Shown: positions 2,921 to 16,043 of the stretch, in pieces
Layout of the letters: every line of letters starts with the position of its first letter
Numbering within the stretch: position 1 is the first letter of the stretch
Source: Pseudoalteromonas sp. MEBiC 03607
Lineage (GTDB): Bacteria > Pseudomonadota > Gammaproteobacteria > Enterobacterales > Alteromonadaceae
Direction of reading: 5' to 3'
Assembly (NCBI RefSeq): GCF_004792295.1
Contig: NZ_SRRY01000001.1
Coordinates: forward strand, 2,428,501 to 2,492,500
DNA: 64,000 nucleotides
Made by a program: the position numbers and the translations under genes
Notes under the pieces: generated by a model
What the model was told of the DNA's origin: nothing
The model's input: the letters and a program-made list of their open reading frames with translations, nothing else
The model's database searches: none

Positions 2921-3619
2921 ATGGCCGGTTTCGATAAAGTGGTTTCAAGTTATGAAGCTGCAATGGAAGGTTTAAAAGATGGCGATACTATCATCGCTGG
3001 TGGCTTTGGCTTGTGTGGTATTCCTGAGGGACTTATCAGTGAAATTAAGCGTAAACAGACTAAAAATCTAACCGTTGTTTCAAACAACTGCGGTGTTGAT
3101 GATTTCGGCTTAGGTATTTTACTTCACGATAAGCAAATTAAAAAAATCATCGCGTCTTATGTAGGTGAAAATGCGCTTTTCGAAAAACAACTACTCGATG
3201 GCGAAATTGATGTGGTTTTAACACCACAAGGTACACTCGCAGAGAAGATGCGTGCCGGTGGTGCGGGTATTCCTGCGTTTTATACTGCAACAGGATACGG
3301 CACTCCGGTTGCAGAAGGTAAAGAAGTTAAAGAATTTGATGGTCGCCCGTATATCTTAGAAGAATCAATTACGGGTGAGTTTGCCATTGTTAAAGCATGG
3401 AAAGCCGACCGCTACGGTAATCTTGTATTTCGCCACACAGCTATGAATTTCAACCCGATGGCCGCGACAGCAGGTAAAATTACCGTTGCTGAAGTTGAAG
3501 AAATTGTTGAGCCAGGTGAACTTGAGCCAAGCCAAATTCATACCCCAGGTATTTATGTTAATCGCGTGATCAAAGGTGACTTTGAAAAACGCATTGAACG
3601 TGTAACAACTCGCGATTAA
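2921..3619 (+). CDS. scoA: 3-oxoacid CoA-transferase subunit A
   Basis: Alpha subunit of succinyl-CoA:3-ketoacid (acetoacetate) CoA-transferase, which activates acetoacetate with succinyl-CoA. The 232-aa protein has the family start ([20 protein letters not shown]), a glycine-rich CoA-loop [12 protein letters not shown], and the [16 protein letters not shown] stretch typical of subunit A. It lies 11 nt after HMG-CoA lyase and 11 nt before subunit B, each with a GGAG-type ribosome site. The position after the lyase means acetoacetate from leucine is the natural substrate. AtoD-type acetyl-CoA:acetoacetate transferase is the alternative; the extended GYGT region resembles SCOT more. Confidence 0.9.
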
Positions 3620-3630
3620 GGAGCAATAAA

Positions 3631-4666: not shown

Positions 4667-5545
4667 ATGCAAACACCTATTCGTGGCTTACGCTCATTTT
4701 GTTTTGCTGCACGTACTCTTAGTTTTAAAGATGCGGCAAACCAACTTTACCTTACGCCTTCTGCCGTAAGCCATCAGATCAAACAATTAGAAGAACAATT
4801 GGGTATTGAACTGTTTGAACGTCAAACACGCTCAATTCGCCTGACAGCTGCAGGGAAGAATTTTTATGACTCTGTGTCACCGCTTATAAAAGCGCTTGAA
4901 AAAACCATCAACGAGTTTAGTCAATTACAAGAGAATGTGACTATTAGCATCACACTGCCTGAATTTTTCGCCAGTGAACTTTTAATGCCGAAGCTAAGTG
5001 AATGGACTAGTGAACACCCTAATACTAACTTACAGCTTAATACCTTAAAAACGCGTAAAGAGCTGACTAAGCAAAGTGATTTATCGATAGTATTGTCTTC
5101 GTCTAAACCGCATGAAGGCGTTGTACATGAGCTGTTTTCGCTATCGTATACACCAGCATGTAATAAAGAAAACTGGCAAGCATGGCAAGAAAACCCATTT
5201 CAGGCCTTAAACGAAGTACCTCTTATACTTCACAAAGCGCGTCCTTGGGCTTGGCACCAATGGGCAGAACATGCCGGTGTAGAAGACTTCGCACCAAAGC
5301 AAATTATTCAGGTTGATAGTATGTTTGGTGTGGCACGTGCAGCGCAACAGGGTATGGGTATTGCCCTAATCCCCTTACCTATTAGTCAGACTTGGTTTGA
5401 TGAGCAATGGCTATTTAATTTCACTGATATGCCATTAAAAACCAAAGACAAATACTACTTAGTGCAACATGACCCTAGCGAAACAAATGCACAGCTAGAG
5501 CTGTTTATTAAATGGATGATTGATACTTTTAAACATCTAAAATAA
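4667..5545 (+). CDS. LysR family transcriptional regulator (GcvA-like)
   Basis: A DNA-binding regulator of 292 aa. Residues 1-62 form the LysR winged helix (RGLRSFCFAARTLSFKDAA, then the recognition helix TPSAVSHQIKQLEEQLG and LFERQTRSIRLTAAG). Residues 90-290 are the periplasmic-binding-like effector domain, ending in a GMGIALIPLP segment as in GcvA/AmpR relatives. It lies alone between a terminator upstream and one downstream, so its targets are not evident from position. Start ATG at 4667 gives the canonical helix position; there is no strong ribosome site. Confidence 0.88.
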   Translation: MQTPIRGLRSFCFAARTLSFKDAANQLYLTPSAVSHQIKQLEEQLGIELFERQTRSIRLTAAGKNFYDSVSPLIKALEKTINEFSQLQENVTISITLPEFFASELLMPKLSEWTSEHPNTNLQLNTLKTRKELTKQSDLSIVLSSSKPHEGVVHELFSLSYTPACNKENWQAWQENPFQALNEVPLILHKARPWAWHQWAEHAGVEDFAPKQIIQVDSMFGVARAAQQGMGIALIPLPISQTWFDEQWLFNFTDMPLKTKDKYYLVQHDPSETNAQLELFIKWMIDTFKHLK

Positions 5546-5592: not shown

Positions 5593-5940
5593 TTAGCTTT
5601 TAGACTTGGTTACTAAAATACTTACTTTATTTTCACCAATTTCAAAAGACGCCTGTTTACCATACTCCACAATAAAAGAAGGTGTAAAATAGCTACCAGC
5701 GAGTGTGATTGATGTTTCTACAGCTGCCGTATTATTTTGTTGTGGTGTAACTTTAACTTCATAACTAAACCCCTCACCTATAGAGATGGTCGCAGGTTGT
5801 TTTTCTTCCACCAGCATTACTGGCGATGCTAGTAGCTCATTCGCTTTATAAACAGATGTTTCAACTTGAAAGCTATCAGCTGCGAAGCAACTTGTTGATG
5901 CTAAAAATACGCCTGCGACTAAACCTAACTGTTTGTACAT
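5593..5940 (-). CDS. Small exported protein of unknown function
   Basis: 115 aa with a clear Sec signal peptide (MYKQLGLVAGVFLASTSCFA, cleavage before ADSF). The mature part of about 95 residues is beta-rich, with alternating polar and hydrophobic stretches and no remaining Cys, and I do not recognise a domain. A periplasmic or secreted location is inferred. It is preceded by AAGGAAAT just upstream of the ATG. It faces the LysR gene across a terminator and is read in the same direction as the next small exported protein. Confidence 0.65.
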   Translation of the reverse strand: MYKQLGLVAGVFLASTSCFAADSFQVETSVYKANELLASPVMLVEEKQPATISIGEGFSYEVKVTPQQNNTAAVETSITLAGSYFTPSFIVEYGKQASFEIGENKVSILVTKSKS

Positions 5941-6039: not shown

Positions 6040-6492
6040 TTAAAGCTCTCGGTAATAAACATCGATAGTATGTGATATTGCTTCATAACGGTTATTTTCA
6101 TGTTTAAAACAGGCTTTGCGTAGTTCCTTCTCTTCGTAGTTTTTACCTGCTACTACGACTTGATCTAAAGTTTGTGAACTTGCACAGAATTGCTGTTTTG
6201 AAATTGTTTCTATTTTAACTGATTCAGCTTTTGAGCGTGGCAATGAACTAGGCTTTGGGTTTTGCTTCATGCCCTGAAGTAACTGAGCTTTAGTAACTGG
6301 TACAGTATCTGACCCTATGCCTGGAATATGCAATGTTTGTCTAATCGTATAGTTTTTACTTAATAATGGCGTAAACAAAGATACATCGTTGCTCAAATAA
6401 GCCTGCTCAAAATTAAGATAAACAGCAACTTTATCTTCAGCTGCATTGGCAATAACAGGCCCTAAAAGTAACAACGCAAATATCAGTTTCAT
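6040..6492 (-). CDS. Exported NTF2-like protein of unknown function
   Basis: 150 aa beginning with a signal peptide (MKLIFALLLLGPVIANAAED, cleavage after ANA). The mature sequence opens with VAVYLNFEQAYLSNDVSLFTPLLSKNY, which resembles the first helices of SnoaL/NTF2-like folds (a helix, then an 'xx-D-xxxL-L' turn). Two Cys (in QFCAS and KACFK) could form a disulfide after export. No catalytic residues can be assigned. It is separated by about 100 nt from the next gene on the same strand. Confidence 0.62.
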   Translation of the reverse strand: MKLIFALLLLGPVIANAAEDKVAVYLNFEQAYLSNDVSLFTPLLSKNYTIRQTLHIPGIGSDTVPVTKAQLLQGMKQNPKPSSLPRSKAESVKIETISKQQFCASSQTLDQVVVAGKNYEEKELRKACFKHENNRYEAISHTIDVYYREL

Positions 6493-6829
6493 GGTTATAC
6501 GCTTATTCTAAATAAATTAAGTCATCAACTATACATACCACCTTAAAGTACCGATTCAGTCATTAATAAACAACAATTTGTTTGTTTTGCGTACTCTGCT
6601 GCTTTATCTTTCTTTATCGTAAACATTAGCTATTTAAACCCCGTGTCTACTTTATCGGGGTCAGATCAGACGGCTTACGGCTTTAAGACTAACTCACTAA
6701 ATTAGACTAAAGTCTATAGGTTAAATTTCTTCATCTATTAGGTCATATTTTATCGTTTGTTGAATTTTCGCTGTTCAATTAAAGTTCATTTGTCGGCGAT
6801 TGATACCGATTTAATTAGAGGAAAAGATT
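6493..6829. other. Divergent intergenic region before the first TPR-like paralogue
   Basis: 337 nt without a gene. It serves the exported NTF2-like gene leftward and the TPR-like gene rightward. A hairpin CCCCG / CGGGG lies near 6640-6661. The last 120 nt are conserved with the upstream region of the second paralogue at 13.5 kb, including a shared TTAAATTTCTTCATCTAT block. Confidence 0.5.
6730..6760 (+). promoter_or_regulatory. Shared upstream element, copy 1 (TTCATCTA-N15-TCGTTTGT)
   Basis: TTCATCTA at 6730-6737 and TCGTTTGT at 6753-6760 are separated by 15 nt and lie 69 nt before the ATG of the first TPR-like paralogue. The same two blocks with exactly 15 nt between them precede the other two paralogues. 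The spacing would suit a promoter read by an alternative sigma factor or a bipartite operator; this is inference. Confidence 0.6.
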
Positions 6830-7252
6830 ATGTTTAGTACACTTATGAAACGCGTTGCACTTAGCTCTTTATTAACTTGTTCAGCTATGGCAGTGGCTGA
6901 TCAGAGTGACTACAAATTGATGGTAATTGACCAATCTATCACTGCTGATATTGCAGAAAACCGTCAATACGAACAAGCATTTAATGACTGTGCTTTAAGT
7001 GTTAAAGAGAAAAAATTCTCTGAAGCTGAAACACTTTGCTCAAAAGCAATCAGCTTACTAAGTACAAGTAAAGTACCTAGCTATAAACGTCGCGAATTAA
7101 CATCGTTTACGTTAAGTAACCGTGGTGTTGCTCGCATCATGTCTGAAAACGACACTGCTGCATTGTCTGACTTTTACGAAGCAGTACAAATTTCAGGTAA
7201 CGAGTTAGTAGAGCACAACTTAACTCGTGCTAAAAAGAACTTAGCGTTATAA
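6830..7252 (+). CDS. Small exported TPR-like protein, paralogue 1 of 3
   Basis: 140 aa with a signal peptide ending CSAMAVA/DQSDY. The mature protein begins DYKLMVID, then has two TPR-like helical pairs: a first with Cys-x15-Cys (CALSVKEKKFSEAETLC), which may be disulfide-bonded after export, and a second with LSNRGVARIMSENDTAA and DFYEA. It ends in NLTRAKKNLAL. It shares most of its sequence with the products at 13608-14027 and 14236-14709. A strong AGAGGAAA ribosome site precedes the ATG and a terminator follows, so it is monocistronic. Function unknown; a periplasmic protein-interaction role is inferred from the TPR-like pattern. Confidence 0.75.
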   Translation: MFSTLMKRVALSSLLTCSAMAVADQSDYKLMVIDQSITADIAENRQYEQAFNDCALSVKEKKFSEAETLCSKAISLLSTSKVPSYKRRELTSFTLSNRGVARIMSENDTAALSDFYEAVQISGNELVEHNLTRAKKNLAL

Positions 7253-7276
7253 GTTCTCACAGAATTGTGTTGTCTC

Positions 7277-7301
7277 AAAACCCAGCTTCGGCTGGGTTTT
7301 G
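7277..7301 (+). terminator. Rho-independent terminator of TPR-like paralogue 1
   Basis: AAAACCCAGC and GCTGGGTTTT pair perfectly around a TTCG tetraloop. The structure is symmetric and could also act on transcription from the right. Confidence 0.85.
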
Positions 7302-7364
7302 TCGTTTATGTACTTTGAATGCCTCCAAACACTTAAATAGCTTGTTTATAGAAGGCTTTCAAAT

Positions 7365-7787
7365 TCAACATTGCTTTATAAAACCCAAAACAAAACAAAC
7401 GCCAACATAAAACCAAATAACGCTTGCAACTATTTGCCAAATATCTAAACCTGAGGTTGTAATAAATGTTGGAATAGCAATTAGACCCCGTAAAGTACAA
7501 ATTACCGCAATTGTTACTAAAGCAGGTTTGAGAAAAGGAACTTTGCGGATTAAGCCCGCCGCTGAAAAAGCAAACACAGTACAAGCAAACATTAAGCTCG
7601 CTACTATTAGTGTGCCAATGGGGGCAAGCAAAGTTCCATGTATTGAAGATTCAATAATTTGTTGAGGAGCCCTAGCAAAAACATACCAACTAGGCCCGCC
7701 AAATATACAGAGTACGTGCCAGATAGCAGAAAAAAACGCAATAATACCCGCACTAATTAATAATTTTGATTGAATACTAAGGCGCAA
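7365..7787 (-). CDS. Four-helix integral membrane protein of unknown function
   Basis: 140 aa with four hydrophobic segments: about residues 8-28 (LLISAGIIAFFSAIWHVLCI), 50-75, 84-105 and 115-137. The loops are short and nothing catalytic can be seen. The start is a TTG at 7785-7787: GGAG six nt upstream supports it and no ATG is available nearby. An inner-membrane location is inferred. It is a single gene with about 80 nt to its upstream same-strand neighbour. Confidence 0.62.
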   Translation of the reverse strand: MRLSIQSKLLISAGIIAFFSAIWHVLCIFGGPSWYVFARAPQQIIESSIHGTLLAPIGTLIVASLMFACTVFAFSAAGLIRKVPFLKPALVTIAVICTLRGLIAIPTFITTSGLDIWQIVASVIWFYVGVCFVLGFIKQC

Positions 7788-7870
7788 TATTGACTCCGTT
7801 TTACTGTAATCTTAGGCCGTATTAAAGCAAATCGACTATAATCCACTTCAAACCTTTCTGATCCGAAATT

Positions 7871-8275
7871 TCACATCCCCAAAAGAGGTAATCCCTTTCG
7901 CTGCTTATAAGTTAAAGCTAACATCAAACAAGACTTTATTATTACTTTTGGTAACGATGTTGATAAACAAAGAACTATAGCTCTATTCCCTTGAAAATGA
8001 AGCTTTTCACCATATAGTTCACGAAATGTATCTACCAATTTAATTTGGCAGTTGAAAAACAGATAATAATTGTTAGGTGACTTTGACTTCCAGTCGATTC
8101 GAAAAGGGCTGCCTGTTTTTACACTGTAGCTAGGCTCTCCCCATTTTAGTGTCTCGTCAACTTCACCAAGGCCCAATTCAGATGCAATTTGAAAAACTAG
8201 CTCTCGAATCTCGAAGAGCTTAGCTCTGGCATTTTCAGGGTATTTATCAAATGTGTTTTTTACTTCCTTGTTCAT
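7871..8275 (-). CDS. DUF1801 domain protein
   Basis: 134 aa. The N-terminal helix pair (FDKYPENARAKLFEIRELVF), a central DETLKWGEPSYSVKTGSPFRIDWK and NNYYLFFNCQ match the DUF1801 (YdhG-like) fold, in which W-GEPSY is the recognisable core. No biochemical role is established for this family, and the protein is probably cytoplasmic. It follows the next same-strand gene after about 100 nt. The C-terminal YKQRKGLPLLGM is normal for small family members. Confidence 0.72.
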   Translation of the reverse strand: MNKEVKNTFDKYPENARAKLFEIRELVFQIASELGLGEVDETLKWGEPSYSVKTGSPFRIDWKSKSPNNYYLFFNCQIKLVDTFRELYGEKLHFQGNRAIVLCLSTSLPKVIIKSCLMLALTYKQRKGLPLLGM

Positions 8276-8377
8276 TTGAGTCTACGGTTATTCATTTTAT
8301 TCAGTAAAATAAAATGTATGGTTTGAAAAATCGATGAAGCAGTGCTGCCATACAATAAGCCTACTTGTATTTTAGAC

Positions 8378-8914
8378 TCATTCACCACTTGCTTCAGATA
8401 ATGCCTGTTTGTAGCTTAAATCAAAGTTTTTGAGTAACTGATTCAGGTAGTTCAGGTTTATCTGGTTAGGTTTAAAACTTTGCCCTTTTTCTATATTTGC
8501 TATGTGTTTTTTTAGCTTTTCTTTATCTTTATTCCAAAAAGCGATGTTTCCTAACACAAAGTCATTCCAATACATTTTTGAACCACTTAGCTCTTCATCG
8601 GGATCCAATACTTTTTTTGCGTGAAAAACCGCTTGTTGATAATCACCCGCTAACCCTTCCATTTGAGCTAAATGCCACGTTAACGAGCTTTCTTTTGAAT
8701 TATTGTGAGAGATAAAACGTTTTATCAGAATTGCGGCTTCAGCATGGCAACCTGATTTTTCTAATAACCTAAACCCAGCATCGTATGTCTGATCAAATTG
8801 TTGGTATGTGAGGTTCAAATCGTCTTTTAACCTTTCTTCAAGCGCTATTTTACAATCAGCAAAAGCAAGATTTGATGAAAATAATAACCCGATAGATAAA
8901 ATTCCTGTTTTCAT
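8378..8914 (-). CDS. Exported helical-repeat (TPR-like) protein of unknown function
   Basis: 178 aa with a signal peptide (MKTGILSIGLLFSSNLAFA, then DCK). The mature part is helical, with repeat-like stretches such as LLEKSGCHAEAAILIKRFI, TWHLAQMEGLAGDYQQAVFHA and LGNIAFWNKDKEKLKKHIANI, as expected of TPR helices that stack. The two mature Cys (DCK and SGCH) could pair. It is not a close relative of the three TPR paralogues in the window, which share their own signature. Periplasmic location inferred; function unknown. Confidence 0.66.
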   Translation of the reverse strand: MKTGILSIGLLFSSNLAFADCKIALEERLKDDLNLTYQQFDQTYDAGFRLLEKSGCHAEAAILIKRFISHNNSKESSLTWHLAQMEGLAGDYQQAVFHAKKVLDPDEELSGSKMYWNDFVLGNIAFWNKDKEKLKKHIANIEKGQSFKPNQINLNYLNQLLKNFDLSYKQALSEASGE

Positions 8915-9022
8915 AATTCTGTCCTTAAATTTACTAATGCCTGTATATGATAAAACTGCTATAAAACGCTAAGTTCACCACAAACTAAAAGTAGTTGGTT
9001 CCATGTAACCTTTAAATTGTTG

Positions 9023-9457
9023 TTACTTTTCTAGATCATGGTAAACATTTGGATTCCAAATTTGCATAAACATCTCTGGATTTTCAATTGGTAGAAAACC
9101 ATATTGCGCGTACAAACCATGCGCATCTCTTGTTGGCAATACCATACGCCTTAAGCATTGAAGCTCTGGGTGAGAGACTATGCTCTCAACAAGCCACTTG
9201 CTCAAACCTTTGCCTCGATGGCTCTCTACTATGAATACATCAGCAAGATAGGCAAATGTTGCTTTGTCTGTTATGAGGCGGGCAAAACCTATTTGATAAT
9301 CATGGCTATCATAGACACCAAAACAAAATGAGTTTGCAATGGCTGTTTCTAGCGTCTGCCTTGGTATTTCGGACGCCCAATAGCTTTTTGAAATAAAACC
9401 GTAAATTACTTCAAAATCGAGGTCAGTTTTATCTGTGCTGATTTTATATCCTTGCAC
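9023..9457 (-). CDS. GNAT family N-acetyltransferase
   Basis: 144 aa with a typical GNAT fold: YWASEIPRQTLETAIANS at the N-terminus, the core strand FAYLADVFIVE, and the acetyl-CoA pyrophosphate loop HRGKGLSKWLV (R/Q-x-x-G-x-G/A). The later LYAQYGFLPIE matches the Y-x-x-x-GF segment. It belongs to the group of short stand-alone acetyltransferases; substrate unknown. It is monocistronic, with gaps of over 100 nt on both sides. Confidence 0.82.
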   Translation of the reverse strand: MQGYKISTDKTDLDFEVIYGFISKSYWASEIPRQTLETAIANSFCFGVYDSHDYQIGFARLITDKATFAYLADVFIVESHRGKGLSKWLVESIVSHPELQCLRRMVLPTRDAHGLYAQYGFLPIENPEMFMQIWNPNVYHDLEK

Positions 9458-9649
9458 CAGTATTCCTTAGTGATGTTAACACCTGTTATTTAAGAGGATT
9501 AGTTTTAACAAAGTTACTAACCGATTGCTACATATATAATTAAAACGCTTTTTTAACAGGATATAGCCTACTGACACAAACACTACCACAACGTAAAACC
9601 ATTACATTGCTATTAAATTTATCAATAATAGATTTGCAGGTTGTTTATA

Positions 9650-9675
9650 AGGGGCTTTAATACGCCCCTATTTTT
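9650..9675. terminator. Stem-loop after the serine hydrolase gene, possible terminator
   Basis: AGGGGC and GCCCCT pair around an 8-nt loop. A T-rich tail (ATTTTT) follows only on the + strand. On the minus strand, where the serine hydrolase ends 10-35 nt earlier, the tail is the weaker TTATAA. It could act as terminator in either direction. Confidence 0.45.
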
Positions 9676-9684
9676 AATGAATTT

Positions 9685-11124
9685 TTACAAACGCTTTATG
9701 AGTTGATCTACTTTTGCCACAACAGGCCATGCTGAAGATTGAAAATTCCCCAAAACAACTAAAATATAGCCTTTTTCTTGATACATATTTAACCTTGCTG
9801 TCATGCCTAAATGGGACCCATTATGACCAACAGTTGTATTCCCTGCTGAACTTCTCACAGAGAAACCATATCCCCAGTTTGGTGCATTTAGTTCAGGTTT
9901 TGCTGATAAGGCTTTATTAGAGAGTTCACGGCTTACTAGTTGAGCATTTTGCATTGCCATGGCGAATTTGTGTAAATCGCCTACAGTTGAATAACCTCCG
10001 CCTGCAGGTCCCCCTTTTACCGATTGAAACATCAAATTTTCAGTTACTTGACCAGTTTCGACAGAAAACCAATAATTACGGGCAGTATTTTTGACAGGCA
10101 CATCTAAGTCATAACTTCCGCTTAGTTGCATGTTAGCTTTTTTATATACATTTTCATTTATGTAATCATAGTAATTTTCACCAGTTACATTCTCAATCAC
10201 CTGACCAAGTAGAACCATACCCGTGTTGCTGTAACGCCATTCAGTTCCGGGTTCAAATGTAGCATCAATTGAAGTGTATAAATGTTGGATATCTTTAAGA
10301 GACCGCACCTTATTTTGTATCTCGTCATAGCCAGAAATATTACCTACCCCTGATGTATGACTTAATAAGTGTCGAATCTTAATTTTGCTAAAATCACCTT
10401 TCCCTAAAATGCTTTTATCAATAAATTTAGTGAGCGGATCATCAAGCGATACTTTGCCAGCTTCTATTAGCTGTAAGATAGCGACGCTAGTAAACATTTT
10501 GTTCATTGAGCCAATTTGAAACTTCGTTTCTAAGTTATTTTTCACATCATAGCGACGTGAAGCAAAGCCATATGCAGCGCTGAACAAAATGTCATTATTT
10601 TTAGCAAGTAATACCGTGCCAGAGAAGCTACCTCTTTGCGCCAGTTTATCAGTATAGATTTTGATCTCTTCAATAAATTGTGACTCAGTTAAAGAGCCTT
10701 TTGAACCTTGGTTTTGTGGAGTTTCTTCAATAGACCACCCTGTTATTGCTTGTAATTGGTCATCATTAAAAAATAACACTACTTGATGCTGCATATCTGT
10801 ATTCTTTGAATAAACTTTACTGATATGACGGATGCGATTAGTTGACGTATCAAGTTCTGTAGAAATAACACTCAACTCTCCATGAAAAAGCGCAACATTC
10901 ATCGAATACCCAACATAACGGTCTTTACCTTTACCCTCCCAGCGTGCAAGAGAATTTGGCGAGAAGTTCTTTACTACAAACTTTTCGATCTCATCTAAAT
11001 CTTTAGTGTTTAAAACCGTAATAAATTGACTTGCCAATTTGTTATAGTCTAACTCTTTCATTGCATGTGCTTTATGGCTAATAAAACACATAAAAAATAT
11101 GAGCATTAGTAAATATCGCTTCAC
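9685..11124 (-). CDS. Exported serine hydrolase of the class C beta-lactamase family
   Basis: 479 aa with a signal peptide (about residues 1-21, ending HKAHA). Residues 25-135 form an extra NTF2-like or DUF3887-type N-terminal domain. Residues 150-479 form the beta-lactamase/DD-peptidase fold, with the nucleophile motif SMNK (Ser206, Lys209), YSN (298-300) and the HNG box (VGHNGSHLGM) in place of KTG. The substitution is usual for esterases and D-aminopeptidases of this family, so a true beta-lactamase activity is unlikely. It is divergently transcribed from a CadC-like regulator across 158 nt, which suggests that regulator may control it. Confidence 0.85.
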   Translation of the reverse strand: MKRYLLMLIFFMCFISHKAHAMKELDYNKLASQFITVLNTKDLDEIEKFVVKNFSPNSLARWEGKGKDRYVGYSMNVALFHGELSVISTELDTSTNRIRHISKVYSKNTDMQHQVVLFFNDDQLQAITGWSIEETPQNQGSKGSLTESQFIEEIKIYTDKLAQRGSFSGTVLLAKNNDILFSAAYGFASRRYDVKNNLETKFQIGSMNKMFTSVAILQLIEAGKVSLDDPLTKFIDKSILGKGDFSKIKIRHLLSHTSGVGNISGYDEIQNKVRSLKDIQHLYTSIDATFEPGTEWRYSNTGMVLLGQVIENVTGENYYDYINENVYKKANMQLSGSYDLDVPVKNTARNYWFSVETGQVTENLMFQSVKGGPAGGGYSTVGDLHKFAMAMQNAQLVSRELSNKALSAKPELNAPNWGYGFSVRSSAGNTTVGHNGSHLGMTARLNMYQEKGYILVVLGNFQSSAWPVVAKVDQLIKRL

Positions 11125-11216
11125 TTTACATTCCTTTTATTGTTTATTGAATAATATGGCGCTTGGCCTTTCGATACTTTTACTTTTGCGAATAACAAAA
11201 AGCGATGAAGTAATGA

Positions 11217-11243
11217 TTAAGAAAAGCTTAAGAAAAAATTAAG
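11217..11243 (+). promoter_or_regulatory. Three TTAAG direct repeats with 11-bp phasing; candidate wHTH operator
   Basis: TTAAG starts at 11217, 11228 and 11239, exactly 11 nt apart, with A-rich spacers between. Regulators with the OmpR/PhoB-type winged helix bind as direct-repeat arrays with 11-bp spacing. The adjacent gene encodes that type of domain, so autoregulation and control of the divergent serine hydrolase are likely. The site is 40-66 nt before the proposed TTG start. Confidence 0.6.
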
Positions 11244-11282
11244 CTGAAAATAACTAATAATAACAAATGGATAACTATCAAC

Positions 11283-13325
11283 TTGAGTGAAAGTAAATTA
11301 TCAAAACAATTTTTTCTTAATGACTCTTTGGTTAATTTTGAGACTGGCGAAATTCAAACAGATGGTAAAGTTGTTGTTGTAGAGCCTAAGGTGATGGCAC
11401 TTCTTGAAGTATTTTCGCAAAAACCACATCAAGTGTTATCAGCCGAAATGCTTTTTGCTAATGTTTGGCCACAAGCTATTTTCAGTCCTAATTCAGTTCG
11501 CAGAAATATTGCTTTGTTAAGACAAGCGTTATCCGATGAAGAAAAGCACATTATAAAAACACACCCAAAGCGGGGCTATAGTCTCGAGGCTGAAATACGT
11601 TTTCATGATGAAAAAACGAGCACTCCATTAGCAAAAATACATCAGATAAAAAATACAAAAATAGCACTCTTAATTATCCCTGCTTTGTTTATCATTATCT
11701 TCCTTTTCAATTTCCTTAACGAAGATAAACAGATTTCTTTAGAAGATCTTAAGCCTATTACTGCAAGCAATGAAAAAGAGCGTTACCTACAAGTTAGTCC
11801 TGATGGGCGTTTTATGGCTTACATACAAAATACCAATCGTCCTAATAAGCGAAGGCTTTTAATCAAAGATTTACTATTAAATTCATATAAAGAATTAAGT
11901 ACAGACTTAAAAGCGTTCACCTACCTTGCATGGGATACAGATACAAATACGCTTGTATATTCGTTTCAAGATGAAGGGAGTATTTCATTCAATCGACTGC
12001 AATTAGATACAGAAGCGAACGTGATCAGCGAAGAAAAACTCTTTTCTCGTACAGATATAACCTGGAACAGCTTGTTTTTTATAGATGAACAAGAAAACCT
12101 TTTCTATTTAGCAAATCAAAACAGTTCCGAACACAGCCGTAATGTAAGCCTATATCGACATAACTTGATTACTGGCCATTCTTACGAAATTCTTCAACCA
12201 AATGATGATTTCAAGCCCTACAAGCTCGCTTTATCACCTAACCAGAAACAATTAGCGATAATTGGCTTCAATGAAGATGCAATCTCGGAGGTAAAACTAT
12301 TAAATTTATCGAGTTTTAACCTTGAATCAGTCGTTGAAATTGATCATAACTGGCACTTTATGACTTGGTTTAACGATGGTGACTCTTTGTTATTGAGTAA
12401 TGGCAGTGAGTTAAAACAACTTGAATTAAACGGCCAATTAACGACTCTTAATTTTAAAAGCTATAACTTTTTGATTTATCCACAAATCGTTAAGGACAAA
12501 CTGTATTTTATTGAGGCTAAGTCTGATCAAGATATTTTGATTAGCGCTTTAGATTCACTCTCTACTCCTATAAAAATCGTAAACTCTAATACCATTGATA
12601 AAGAAGCTGCACTTTCACCTGATGAAAAACTCATCGCCTACATGTCAATGAAAAATGGACTTCCACAACTTTTTATTAAACATATTGAGACTGAGGAAGA
12701 ACAATTATTATTCGTTAACACTGAGCAAGAATATGCTTTATCAAAACCAATATGGGACCCCTCTGGAACACGTATCGCAAGCAGTATAAATAACAAACCA
12801 TTTCTTATTAAGCTAGAGGAAGACCAGTTCGCAATCGAATGGTTAAATGGAATCATTGGGTATCCAATCGGGTGGTATAAACAGTCAGATGCTATTTTGT
12901 TTGTTGATAAGAACACTCACAATGATGAAATAGTTAAATTTGATTTAGTTACTGACGAAATAATGTCATTAAAAACGCAATTGAAAGATAAAGATATTTT
13001 TTTAAATGATAACGACGAATTACTGAGTTTTTCAATTGGCCAAGTAATCACTGCTTCTGGTACCAATCTATTTGATAATACGCATTTTATTTCAAGCATT
13101 TACCCTATTAAAAATGGCTTCTATTTTCAATACAAAGAAAACGACTCAAGGACAATGAATTTTTACGATTATGAACTAGGTGTTCAAAATTTAAGTATTG
13201 ATTTTGAAAAGTTTTGTGCGGATTTATGTAGTCAAATAACTGCTATAAGCGGTAATACTATCTTACTCAAAGAACAAACTGATACAGCAGATATTTTAGT
13301 TTTGAATATTACATTAAATAAATAG
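11283..13325 (+). CDS. CadC-like membrane-anchored winged-helix regulator with periplasmic beta-propeller
   Basis: 680 aa. Residues 10-105 form a Trans_Reg_C (OmpR-type) winged helix (EPKVMALLEVF, LSAEMLFANVWP, SVRRNIALLRQAL, IKTHPKRGYSLE). A single membrane helix lies at about 127-145. The rest, exported, contains PD40/TolB-like beta-propeller repeats such as VSPDGRFMAYIQ, LSPNQKQLAII and LSPDEKLIAYMS. The protein would sense something outside the membrane and act directly on DNA, without a kinase. The start is TTG at 11283: an ATG 14 nt earlier is out of frame and soon stops, so TTG is the only choice that keeps the whole DNA-binding domain. No good ribosome site is visible. Confidence 0.85.
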   Translation: MSESKLSKQFFLNDSLVNFETGEIQTDGKVVVVEPKVMALLEVFSQKPHQVLSAEMLFANVWPQAIFSPNSVRRNIALLRQALSDEEKHIIKTHPKRGYSLEAEIRFHDEKTSTPLAKIHQIKNTKIALLIIPALFIIIFLFNFLNEDKQISLEDLKPITASNEKERYLQVSPDGRFMAYIQNTNRPNKRRLLIKDLLLNSYKELSTDLKAFTYLAWDTDTNTLVYSFQDEGSISFNRLQLDTEANVISEEKLFSRTDITWNSLFFIDEQENLFYLANQNSSEHSRNVSLYRHNLITGHSYEILQPNDDFKPYKLALSPNQKQLAIIGFNEDAISEVKLLNLSSFNLESVVEIDHNWHFMTWFNDGDSLLLSNGSELKQLELNGQLTTLNFKSYNFLIYPQIVKDKLYFIEAKSDQDILISALDSLSTPIKIVNSNTIDKEAALSPDEKLIAYMSMKNGLPQLFIKHIETEEEQLLFVNTEQEYALSKPIWDPSGTRIASSINNKPFLIKLEEDQFAIEWLNGIIGYPIGWYKQSDAILFVDKNTHNDEIVKFDLVTDEIMSLKTQLKDKDIFLNDNDELLSFSIGQVITASGTNLFDNTHFISSIYPIKNGFYFQYKENDSRTMNFYDYELGVQNLSIDFEKFCADLCSQITAISGNTILLKEQTDTADILVLNITLNK

Positions 13326-13506
13326 CTTCAATCATAACTAGCTGATCTAGAGTATGTGTTTTCAACCAAACTGATAACATCAGTACATAAATAGCATTCA
13401 CAAAACAAAGCTTATTGTGTTTGAAAGTAATTTTCAGACACTCTCCTCTCTAATTTTCCTTACTAAATCGCTGAGAACTGAGTAATTACTCTATAGATTA
13501 AATTTC

Positions 13507-13537
13507 TTCATCTATCAGTTCTAATTTAATCGTTTGT
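13507..13537 (+). promoter_or_regulatory. Shared upstream element, copy 2 (TTCATCTA-N15-TCGTTTGT)
   Basis: TTCATCTA at 13507-13514 and TCGTTTGT at 13530-13537, 15 nt apart and 70 nt before the ATG of paralogue 2. The surrounding 120 nt also match the region before paralogue 1 (TTAAATTTCTTCATCTAT, TTAAAGTTCA and AGAGGAAAA blocks), so gene and control region were duplicated together. Confidence 0.6.
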
Positions 13538-13607
13538 TTAGCTTATAGGAATATTTTAAAGTTCACTCGTTGGCAATAAACACCAACTTATTCAGAGGAA
13601 AACTATC

Positions 13608-14027
13608 ATGTTAAAAACACTTGTAACCACTATTGCACTTAGCTCTTTATTAACTTGCTCAGCGATGGCAGTAGCCGACCAAGCTGATTATAAACTGATG
13701 GTTATTGAACAAGCTCAAACAAACGATAATGTAAGCAATGAATATGAAACTGCATTCAACCGCTGTGCATTAAGCGTAAAAGAAAAGAATTTTTCAGAAG
13801 CTGAAAACCTATGTACACAAGCGATTTCACTTCTAAACACAAGTAAAGTACCAGGTTACAAACGCCGTGAATTAACATCATTTGCGTTAAGTAATCGCGG
13901 TGTTGCACGTATCATGTCAGAAAATGATACAGCTGCAATCTCAGACTTTTATGAAGCAGTTCAAATCTCAAAAAATGAACTGGTAAATCATAACTTAAAC
14001 CGCGCGAAGCAAAACTTAGCGCTGTAA
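13608..14027 (+). CDS. Small exported TPR-like protein, paralogue 2 of 3
   Basis: 139 aa with a signal peptide nearly identical to paralogue 1 (SSLLTCSAMAVA then DQADYKLMVIEQ). The same Cys-x15-Cys pair (CALSVKEKNFSEAENLC), LSNRGVARIMSENDTAA, DFYEA and terminal NLNRAKQNLAL are present. It is closest to paralogue 1 and differs mainly in a short variable stretch after LMVI. A strong AGAGGAAAA ribosome site is present. It is followed by its own terminator and then by paralogue 3. Confidence 0.75.
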   Translation: MLKTLVTTIALSSLLTCSAMAVADQADYKLMVIEQAQTNDNVSNEYETAFNRCALSVKEKNFSEAENLCTQAISLLNTSKVPGYKRRELTSFALSNRGVARIMSENDTAAISDFYEAVQISKNELVNHNLNRAKQNLAL

Positions 14028-14054
14028 TAGTTAGCCCAACCAAATTGTTGTCGT

Positions 14055-14092
14055 AAGCCCGGTCCTTGTGTGTTCTGACTGGGCTTTTTTTT
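14055..14092 (+). terminator. Rho-independent terminator of TPR-like paralogue 2
   Basis: AAGCCCGGTC pairs with GACTGGGCTT (one G-T pair) across a 12-nt loop and is followed by a run of eight T. Confidence 0.82.
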
Positions 14093-14137
14093 GTCTAAAA
14101 TATACACTCAAGCCACCTACCCAATAAGATATTTTTT

Positions 14138-14168
14138 TTCATCTAATGGGTGTATTTTTGTCGTTTGT
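14138..14168 (+). promoter_or_regulatory. Shared upstream element, copy 3 (TTCATCTA-N15-TCGTTTGT)
   Basis: TTCATCTA at 14138-14145 and TCGTTTGT at 14161-14168, again 15 nt apart and 67 nt before the ATG of paralogue 3. Outside the two blocks this copy has diverged from the other two, which points to selection on the blocks themselves. Confidence 0.6.
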
Positions 14169-14235
14169 CAATCAGTAACACTGTTTCTAAATTAATAGAG
14201 TAAGTGATGTACTTACATTATTAAGGAGATAAACA

Positions 14236-14709
14236 ATGTTCAAGTTCATACCTGTCAAAACCATCTTGATTACCTCACTTTGCATGAGTTCGAATTGGGT
14301 GTTAGCAAATGATATCGACTTTAAACTAATGGTAGTGGATGACGAAGCCTCATCCATTGCGATTATGCAAGGTGACTACAATGCTGGGTTAGTAACGTCT
14401 GCTGAAGATCCAGCAAATCAATATATAGCGCCTTTTAATCGCTGTGTTGCAAGTGTAAAGCTAAAGCAGTTTGAAAAAGCTGAAGCTGACTGTACTGAAG
14501 CAATAAGCCTATTAAAAGAGATTAAAGCATCTCGATTTAAACGTAATGAATTAACGTCGTTTGCATTAAGTAACCGAGGTGTCGCGCGATTTATGGCTAA
14601 TAATGATACGGCAGCAATTGCTGACTTTTATGAAGCCTCAAGACTCGATGATAATGAATATGTATCATTTAATTTAAATCGCGCAAAACAGGAATTAAAA
14701 TTGTGGTAA
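14236..14709 (+). CDS. Small exported TPR-like protein, paralogue 3 of 3
   Basis: 157 aa. Signal peptide ends VLA/NDIDFKLMVVD. It keeps Cys-x15-Cys (CVASVKLKQFEKAEADC), RNELTSFALSNRGVARFM, NNDTAAIADFYEA and a final NLNRAKQELKLW. It is the most diverged of the three, with about 17 extra residues between the LMVVD strand and the first helix. AAGGAGAT gives a strong ribosome site. It is an independent transcription unit bounded by terminators. Confidence 0.74.
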   Translation: MFKFIPVKTILITSLCMSSNWVLANDIDFKLMVVDDEASSIAIMQGDYNAGLVTSAEDPANQYIAPFNRCVASVKLKQFEKAEADCTEAISLLKEIKASRFKRNELTSFALSNRGVARFMANNDTAAIADFYEASRLDDNEYVSFNLNRAKQELKLW

Positions 14710-14765: not shown

Positions 14766-16043
14766 TTAAATTTGGTCACGTGGCACAAAATCAAGCACCG
14801 TCGCATTAATGCAGTATCTATCTTTACCTCTTGGCCCTTCCCCCGGGAATAAGTGTCCTAAGTGAATACCTGAGCTTTTAGATTTAAGCTCAATGCGCTG
14901 CATGCCATAACTGTTGTCTTCATGCATGGTCACACTGTCTTTTACCGGGTGAGTAAATGAAAGCCAACCGGTTCCCGAATTAAACCTATCACGAGTATCG
15001 AATAATGGCGCACCACTTAGCTTATCAACAAAAATACCATCCGGTGTGTTTTTAAAGATATCGTATTGTTTACAAAATGGGCTATCTGTTCTGGCATGGA
15101 ATGCAACTCTGAATGCTTCACTATCACCTAGTTTAAATGCGCCTAAGGCTTTATAAAACTCATCTTTACTCACATAACCTTGTCTCCCATACACTTCTTC
15201 GCCATTTTCAATAAATAAGAGTGTGGGTGTCGCCCATGTTGGGGTTTTAATTTTTAAGCCATCAAGCTGATCTGCATGGCGAAAAGTCATTGGAATTGTG
15301 CCTTGATAATTATTTGCGACCTCATTTTTAAATTTTTCACAATAAGGGCAATAGCCTTTAGCATCTATCACGACAATTTGCTTATTGGTTAATAAGGCCG
15401 TGTTATCAACTTGCTGTTTTTCTACTGGCGTAAAAACAACCCCTGTTGAGTGATCAGGACAATAGCCATTAGGGTTTTTCTTTAAATAATCTTGATGATA
15501 TTCCTCTGCCGCATAAAACGAATCGAGAGGTTTTATAATAGTAACAATCTTGCCGTACCCTGCTGCGGTTAACTTACCTTGGTATTCATCTTTAAGTTTA
15601 TTAGCAACCTCAATTTGCTGATTATTACTTGCCAAAATTGTTGAGCGGTATTGAGTGCCAATATCATTGCCTTGGCGATTTAACTGAGTTGGATCATGAT
15701 TTTCGAAATAGTATTTTAATAATTGTTCTGTCGTTAACTGATTACTGTTGTAAGTCACTTTAACAACTTCTGCGTAGTTATTTTCATCAAATCGACGTGC
15801 GCTACGTGTTATGTTTCTATAGGTTGCTTTAAAACCGCTACCGTCAGCATAACCAGATACCGCATCTAAAACACCATCAAGTGCTTCGTATCGTTTTTCG
15901 GCTCCCCAAAAGCAACCAGAACCAAGCACAATTGTTTCAATATGTCCGGTTGCGTTGTCTGGCATCTCTTGCGCTGTTGTATGGTTCATGGTGAAAATGG
16001 CACTGCAAGTGAATAATGTCAGTAATATCGACTTAATTGTCAT
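14766..16043 (-). CDS. msrAB: Exported MsrA-thioredoxin-MsrB methionine sulfoxide reductase fusion
   Basis: 425 aa that reduces both methionine sulfoxide stereoisomers in exported proteins. Signal peptide at about 1-25. MsrA domain 35-205 with the catalytic GCFWGAE (Cys44), GTQYRS and a recycling Cys in NGYCPDHS (195). A thioredoxin-like domain at 220-305 has the redox motif CPYC (232-235) and a cis-Pro segment ATPTLLF. The MsrB domain at 305-425 has the catalytic Cys in RYCINA (411) and a possible resolving Cys324. The MsrB lacks the CxxC zinc pairs, so it is the zinc-free type. The Neisseria PilB protein has thioredoxin first; here it is in the middle. AGGA precedes the ATG. Confidence 0.9.
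   Translation of the reverse strand: MTIKSILLTLFTCSAIFTMNHTTAQEMPDNATGHIETIVLGSGCFWGAEKRYEALDGVLDAVSGYADGSGFKATYRNITRSARRFDENNYAEVVKVTYNSNQLTTEQLLKYYFENHDPTQLNRQGNDIGTQYRSTILASNNQQIEVANKLKDEYQGKLTAAGYGKIVTIIKPLDSFYAAEEYHQDYLKKNPNGYCPDHSTGVVFTPVEKQQVDNTALLTNKQIVVIDAKGYCPYCEKFKNEVANNYQGTIPMTFRHADQLDGLKIKTPTWATPTLLFIENGEEVYGRQGYVSKDEFYKALGAFKLGDSEAFRVAFHARTDSPFCKQYDIFKNTPDGIFVDKLSGAPLFDTRDRFNSGTGWLSFTHPVKDSVTMHEDNSYGMQRIELKSKSSGIHLGHLFPGEGPRGKDRYCINATVLDFVPRDQI

Follow-up and report, generated by a model that had tools for sequence, protein, structure and literature searches.

Why do three paralogous genes in one stretch of the Pseudoalteromonas sp. MEBiC 03607 genome share an upstream element whose two blocks, TTCATCTA and TCGTTTGT, are always separated by exactly 15 nucleotides (nt)? 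We addressed this question in a window of 64,000 nt (contig NZ_SRRY01000001.1, positions 2,428,501 to 2,492,500, forward strand) and in related genomes. The three genes code for small, exported-looking proteins of a TPR-type family. Judging from sequence comparison, each element most probably represents an operator together with the -35 region of a promoter that is activated by one LysR-type regulator, encoded at 4667-5545 of the window.

Occurrence of the element in the window and the host genome

An initial annotation of the window had reported TTCATCTA-N15-TCGTTTGT at 6730, 13507 and 14138, 67-70 nt before the ATG of each gene. We found perfect matches at all three positions, and the gaps from the end of the element to the ATG amount to 69, 70 and 67 nt for copies 1, 2 and 3, respectively. 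Elements and genes are located as follows:

6730..6760, + strand: reported element, copy 1, exact match
6830..7252, + strand: TPR-type exported-looking protein, copy 1, 140 amino acids (aa)
13507..13537, + strand: reported element, copy 2, exact match
13608..14027, + strand: TPR-type exported-looking protein, copy 2, 139 aa; AlphaFold model with helices within 42-136
14138..14168, + strand: reported element, copy 3, exact match; left half-site of the dyad (see below) degenerate
14236..14709, + strand: TPR-type exported-looking protein, copy 3, 157 aa; TPR_1 above the Pfam cutoff

When up to three mismatches were allowed the window contained 7 matches, 3 of them perfect, compared to a mean of 0.93 in shuffled sequence. 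The annotation had asked for a search of the whole genome, which consists of two contigs (3.73 and 0.83 Mb). In these 4.56 Mb the element occurs exactly four times, each time 5' of a family paralogue; the fourth copy lies on the second replicon upstream of the fourth paralogue, the only other one detected in the genome. Protein searches of the host genome gave the same four TPR-family genes (5 match rows in one search, 4 in another). Combining the element with a -10 box and allowing no mismatch, only these four sites match in the whole genome. At up to three mismatches there are 28 matches versus 41 in a reversed control, and since 28 does not exceed 41 these looser matches are background.

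Anatomy of the promoters in Pseudoalteromonas

For a comparison within the genus we assembled 76 loci (L072-L147) in addition to the window, covering a part of the family matches in Pseudoalteromonas. They comprise 113 places of family genes, two of which are a gene interrupted by an internal stop and a short fragment. The element is located 5' of 110 of these 113 genes: 102 were detected by the regular expression TTCA-N19-TCGnTTGT and 8 are one base off in a block. We then reduced the set to 26 dereplicated promoters (<80% identity), chosen by the two blocks alone and without using the -10. TCGTTTGT is invariant or nearly so in these promoters, and the positions near it carry little information. 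It overlaps a -35 of the sigma70 type (TTGTnn), and a -10 (TAAAGT or TAAATT) follows 17 base pairs (bp) further on; in 24 of the 26 the pattern TAnnnT follows the right block at one and the same offset. Because TCGTTTGT is nearly invariant and TAnnnT keeps this offset, TTGTnn-N17-TAAAGT reads as a sigma70-type promoter. For the window the predicted hexamers are:

6757..6762, + strand: predicted -35 TTGTTG, copy 1, overlapping TCGTTTGT, at the fixed 17 bp to the -10
6780..6785, + strand: predicted -10 TAAAGT, copy 1
13534..13539, + strand: predicted -35 TTGTTT, copy 2
13557..13562, + strand: predicted -10 TAAAGT, copy 2
14165..14170, + strand: predicted -35 TTGTCA, copy 3
14188..14193, + strand: predicted -10 TAAATT, copy 3

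This arrangement bears on the first of two functions that the annotation had offered, in which the two blocks are the -35 and -10 of a promoter for an alternative sigma factor of the extracytoplasmic function (ECF) type. Two conserved blocks with fixed spacing agree with it, and a gap of 15 nt falls in the range of ECF promoters. However, the right block does not take the place of a -10, since a separate predicted -10 lies downstream at a fixed offset, and in other genera the left block is one half of an inverted repeat. On the basis of the promoter sequences we regard an ECF promoter as very unlikely. The spacer, which had been considered free of constraint, is T-rich and partly conserved in relatives, including a partly conserved GGT.

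An inverted repeat in other genera

TCGTTTGT was also found, read by eye, upstream of all 23 family genes from genera other than Pseudoalteromonas. TTCA is present at the right distance near the gene in 14 of these 23 loci (regular expression); the remaining ones show changes such as TTAACC or CTCACT, or their left part is outside the stretch printed. In these genera the left block, TTCAYCT, forms the right arm of an inverted repeat, AGRTGAA-N5-TTCAYCT. Among 18 dereplicated TPR promoters of the order to which the host belongs, the left arm matches at a mean of 6.1 of 7 positions versus 1.9 at control offsets. A -10 is present in 15 of these 18, a share that is partly circular because the set was picked by a score including the right block and the -10. 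TGAA-N5-TTCA corresponds to the LysR box T-N11-A (positions -9 and 4). With a predicted transcription start assumed 7 nt after the -10, the centre of the dyad, which is near-perfect in other genera and imperfect in Pseudoalteromonas, lies at about -65, and the second conserved block overlaps TTGTnn, 17 bp from the -10, at the place of an activation site. In the window we assigned:

6718..6736, + strand: copy 1 operator dyad AGGTTAA-N5-TTCATCT; T-N11-A at 6721..6733; axis at about -65
13495..13513, + strand: copy 2 operator dyad AGATTAA-N5-TTCATCT
6703..6716, no strand: extra palindrome TAGACTAAAGTCTA 5' of the copy 1 operator, read from the sequence; recurs in Pseudoalteromonas promoters
13480..13491, no strand: palindrome GAGTAATTACTC 5' of the copy 2 operator, read from the sequence

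The upstream region of copy 3 had been described as diverged apart from the blocks. This is true of the left half-site, which is degenerate (3 of 7 by eye); the promoter itself, TTGTCA-N17-TAAATT, is kept. The second function proposed by the annotation, a bipartite operator, is supported in the form of a putative LysR-type recognition half-site near -65 plus an activation site at -35. Taken as a whole, the earlier interpretation loses its ECF part and retains its operator part; it had not linked the LysR gene at 4667-5545 to the element.

The element could alternatively be a mere relic of gene duplication, as the family is paralogous and copies 1 and 2 have much of their upstream region in common. 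Yet TCGTTTGT is kept while neighboring positions carry little information, it is kept across genera whose TPR proteins are only 20-30% identical to copy 2, and the element also precedes unrelated ORFs (open reading frames) and RNA-like units. We therefore consider such a relic extremely unlikely.

Two further candidates were dropped. A LuxR-like palindrome within the element, ACCTATTAGGT, is on reading not conserved in relatives. A hairpin at the 5' end of the TPR leaders was rejected as well: some stem can be drawn in 23 of 24 dereplicated leaders and none in one, with a mean z of -0.66 versus simple shuffles. As a side observation, the palindromes TAGACTAAAGTCTA and GAGTAATTACTC differ, yet they sit at a nearly equal place upstream of the copy 1 and copy 2 operators.

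A LysR-type gene shares the distribution of the TPR family

The candidate regulator is located upstream of copy 1:

4667..5545, + strand: LysR-type regulator, 292 aa, Pfam HTH_1 and LysR_substrate; proposed cognate activator

Its best NCBIfam match is GcvA (PRK11139) with 184.1 bits, below the cutoff of 288, so that it does not qualify as a GcvA member. With thresholds for the LysR gene of E <= 1e-80 in the genus and E <= 1e-55 in the order, we found this gene and the TPR family in the same 46 of 108 Pseudoalteromonas genomes (Fisher 1.3e-31, ignoring phylogeny), and the two genes are often unlinked there, e.g. at 1.53 and 2.03 Mb of one contig in G005. Among 394 genomes of the order the TPR family is present in 25, which belong to 13 of 114 genera and of which 2 are Pseudoalteromonas. 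The LysR gene is present in 30, among them all 25 with the family. Outside Pseudoalteromonas the two are neighbors: a LysR-type gene is the nearest same-strand upstream ORF (>=90 aa) of the TPR gene in 23 of 23 loci, with a gap of about 400-870 nt in L165, L166 and L169. In 9 of the 394 genomes, each of which has the LysR gene, the operator combined with the -10 occurs without mismatch; with at most one mismatch it occurs in 20 of the 30 LysR-positive genomes. In the 5 genomes of the order that have the LysR gene and no detected TPR gene, operator-like sites adjoin the LysR gene (2 by score, 3 degenerate by eye). These data point to the LysR-type protein at 4667-5545 as the likely regulator of the element.

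Could the element instead be the operator of a different regulator, with the LysR gene just a frequent neighbor? Such a reading would fit the unlinked genes in many Pseudoalteromonas, the extra palindrome upstream of many operators of this genus, and the CadC-like regulator encoded just upstream of copy 2 (11283-13325). On the other hand, the LysR and TPR genes have an identical distribution despite being unlinked, and operator-like sites remain beside the LysR gene where no TPR gene is detected. The CadC-like protein was rejected as a general regulator, since members of its family were seen close to TPR genes in just 4 genomes. We judge a different regulator to be improbable.

Several observations weigh against assigning the element to the LysR-type protein. 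The operator with the -10 is also found at one mismatch in 26 of 364 LysR-negative genomes of the order, and among the 62 Pseudoalteromonas genomes without the LysR gene 14 match the two blocks at one mismatch; the spacers of these 14 mostly look unlike the real one, and one conserved form (L014) is unexplained. The P values overstate independence because related genomes share ancestry. Three of the 113 Pseudoalteromonas genes have no intact element close to their start: in L095 and L096 an apparent insertion separates promoter and gene, and L110 retains the right block TCGTTTGT only. Furthermore the left arm of the dyad is imperfect in Pseudoalteromonas (mean 4.6 of 7 versus 2.1 in controls, 26 promoters); TTA replaces TGA in the left half-site in all 26, and this half-site is largely lost in copy 3 of the window. 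Finally, in 30 Pseudoalteromonas loci we saw no element in the 500 nt preceding the LysR gene (in two of these loci only 403 and 156 nt are available). Self-regulation of the LysR gene is not supported, because no such element was detected in these loci and in other genera the elements upstream of the gene belong to RNA-like units with a terminator at the end.

Some sites were noted separately. At 1501-1531 of L014 and L022 there is a variant, TTCATCTTCACGC..TCTCGTTTGT, with TATAAA behind it at an unchanged distance of 17 bp; its 31-mer is present in 7 of 108 genomes, one of which (G101) is without the LysR gene. In L142 a lone element (3599-3629, + strand; G089 C12:217598-217628, minus) is located 3' of the LysR gene. 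The printed stretch that follows this element contains no TPR gene, and the element has the appearance of a leftover from a lost copy.

Small-RNA-like units and small ORFs behind the operator

The operator also precedes two classes of short units that resemble small RNAs. Class A comprises 13 units in 9 of 28 loci of the order (L270-L297), upstream of the LysR gene; a site at 3497 of L270 was left out of the list as it is actually a TPR promoter. Each unit consists of the operator and the -10 at the usual spacing, a hairpin and then an intrinsic terminator. The hairpin loop is of the UCCC or CCCCC type in 10 of 13 units, and 12 units are 73-94 nt long; for the 13th (L280) no end was found by script, while a terminator is visible by eye. 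L277 contains three such units in tandem, and in L273-L275 class A-like units precede the LysR gene (by eye). One stem pair differs on both sides (GAAATC/GATTTC versus GAAACC/GGTTTC, read directly). No covariation count was drawn from the MAFFT alignment, which split the hairpins.

Class B comprises 47 units, 36 of them distinct, in 18 of 24 Pseudoalteromonas loci scanned (L132-L143, L298-L309). There are 1 to 5 per locus, mostly spaced by 110-144 nt, and a single operator lies before the units wherever it is printed. In L298-L304 they are located downstream of the LysR gene and in the others elsewhere, e.g. in L133 between nqrF/apbE-like and cyoA-like genes (names by eye). The array of L133 (3740-4280) has five tandem hairpin units at 113 nt spacing, preceded by one operator; the second hairpin of each unit resembles a terminator. 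In addition, two small ORFs follow the operator: one of 32 aa (MNK..) in L106, L121 and L124, and, in L273-L275, one of 35 aa (MLNYMK..) located 3' of the LysR gene. The RNA-like units are presumably transcribed and part of the regulon.

One 24-base class B pattern, searched with up to three mismatches, has no match in the window's genome. Short strings of both classes matched once in the window, at about 49107, where the class B context is lacking, and not at all in L112. One of the RNA search patterns covers just one variant, in 10 of 108 genomes, and its count is too low. No match was found in a plasmid search with one RNA unit. The Rfam scans covered 14 sources, a part of the loci with units: 6 sources had no match at the gathering score, and a search of 8 sources at E up to 5 gave 16 matches, none of which reached gathering or was to GcvB.

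A proposed regulon and its relation to known systems

We propose that a tetramer of the LysR-type regulator would bind the dyad AGRTGAA-N5-TTCAYCT (T-N11-A, centre at about -65) and the T-rich TATCGTTTGTC stretch at -35. Upon a signal it would help RNA polymerase to start from the weak sigma70-type promoter TTGTnn-N17-TAAAGT. The 15-nt gap would be fixed because both contacts must hold one helical phase, mutually and to the -35. The regulon would include the small exported-looking TPR proteins, which are duplicated in Pseudoalteromonas, the small-RNA-like units, which adjoin the regulator gene or lie elsewhere, and the two small ORFs.

The operator is of a known kind. As in LysR-type operators generally, T-N11-A is embedded in an imperfect dyad centred at about -65, a second conserved block is located at -35 and, in other genera, the regulator gene is next to its targets; the accessible text of a published description of LysR sites gives the same -65 site and T-N11-A layout (PMC8407307). 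It differs in that the right block TCGTTTGT is unusually rigid, the regulator gene is upstream of and co-oriented with its target rather than divergent, and several target copies are dispersed. The element is most probably an ordinary LysR operator with its -35, in an apparently undescribed regulon. We did not find the regulon in the literature searched, which covered in part general LysR-site and GcvA topics and consisted mostly of papers outside subscription.

Another close parallel is the GcvA-gcvB pair of enterobacteria. Here, too, a GcvA-like LysR protein is accompanied by small-RNA-like units beside its gene, and its best solved relative is a GcvA-type chain (8y6u). However, the protein remains below the NCBIfam cutoff (184 of 288), no GcvB match was found in the sources scanned, and the targets include exported-looking TPR proteins. 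The operator also differs from the GcvA sites of E. coli. In the portion available of a Shewanella regulon study, the GcvA motif is given as wholly different from that of E. coli (PMC3223726), and the available text on E. coli describes gcvB as divergent from gcvA, which encodes its activator (PMC1557403). Small RNAs of the Csr/Rsm type are likewise known from Pseudoalteromonas and Alteromonas. As far as the accessible parts of two reports on these marine relatives go, Pf1 and Aln1a-c, the latter three adjacent RNAs, are described by dense GGA motifs and by shown or predicted CsrA binding (PMC9927453; PMC5864184). The units described here show a UCCCC-type or GU-rich loop.

Beyond the single element we tentatively consider an order-wide regulon, a reading to which we give somewhat less than even chances. 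In it one GcvA-like LysR protein would switch on multi-copy small RNAs of two new families, the UCCCC-loop type beside the regulator gene and the tandem hairpin arrays of Pseudoalteromonas, together with fast-changing small exported proteins. This would amount to a response of the envelope or nutrient type having two arms, one of RNA and one that binds peptides in the periplasm. The results point to a LysR regulator and RNA units that are paired in a GcvA/GcvB-like way in bacteria other than enterobacteria, and to two small-RNA-like families below every Rfam threshold in the sources scanned, hosted by marine bacteria including Pseudoalteromonas and relatives of Shewanella and Rheinheimera. Proteins labelled mostly as hypothetical or orphan would be gathered into a single regulon for which a candidate regulator is named and the operator is exact, and their function would therefore be testable by one deletion. 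Having both exported-looking proteins and RNA-like targets makes the regulon worth testing.

The TPR-family proteins and neighboring genes

With a Pfam TPR_1 cutoff of 27.8 bits, copy 3 scores 31.6, whereas copies 1 and 2 remain below it (19.9 and 21.6). The AlphaFold model of copy 2 shows five helices in residues 42-136 with a mean predicted local distance difference test (pLDDT) score of 84.5; the first 40 residues are of low to medium confidence. Its helical pairs resemble TPR proteins, and the best-matching PDB folds include TPR domains (best E 0.008, none <=0.001). The family differs from these in being short, exported-looking (judged by eye) and equipped with two invariant cysteines, C53 and C69 of copy 2, in 45 aligned sequences. 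Lengths are 134-182 aa among the matches listed. In two lists of 120 rows each the source annotations are mostly hypothetical, with some orphan or TPR proteins. The proteins may have a periplasmic role in binding peptides or proteins.

Several neighbors in the window were recorded in passing. Two small exported-looking proteins without Pfam match are encoded between the LysR gene and copy 1 (5593-5940 and 6040-6492), and both of their families are near TPR genes in 8 genomes. A Beta-lactamase-family (Pfam) exported-looking protein (9685-11124) lies between copies 1 and 2. The CadC-like winged-helix regulator directly upstream of copy 2 has a TTG start and carries a TolB/PD40-type propeller. 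Downstream of copy 3, 14766-16043 encodes a fusion of Methionine sulfoxide reductase A, a thioredoxin-like part and SelR (B).

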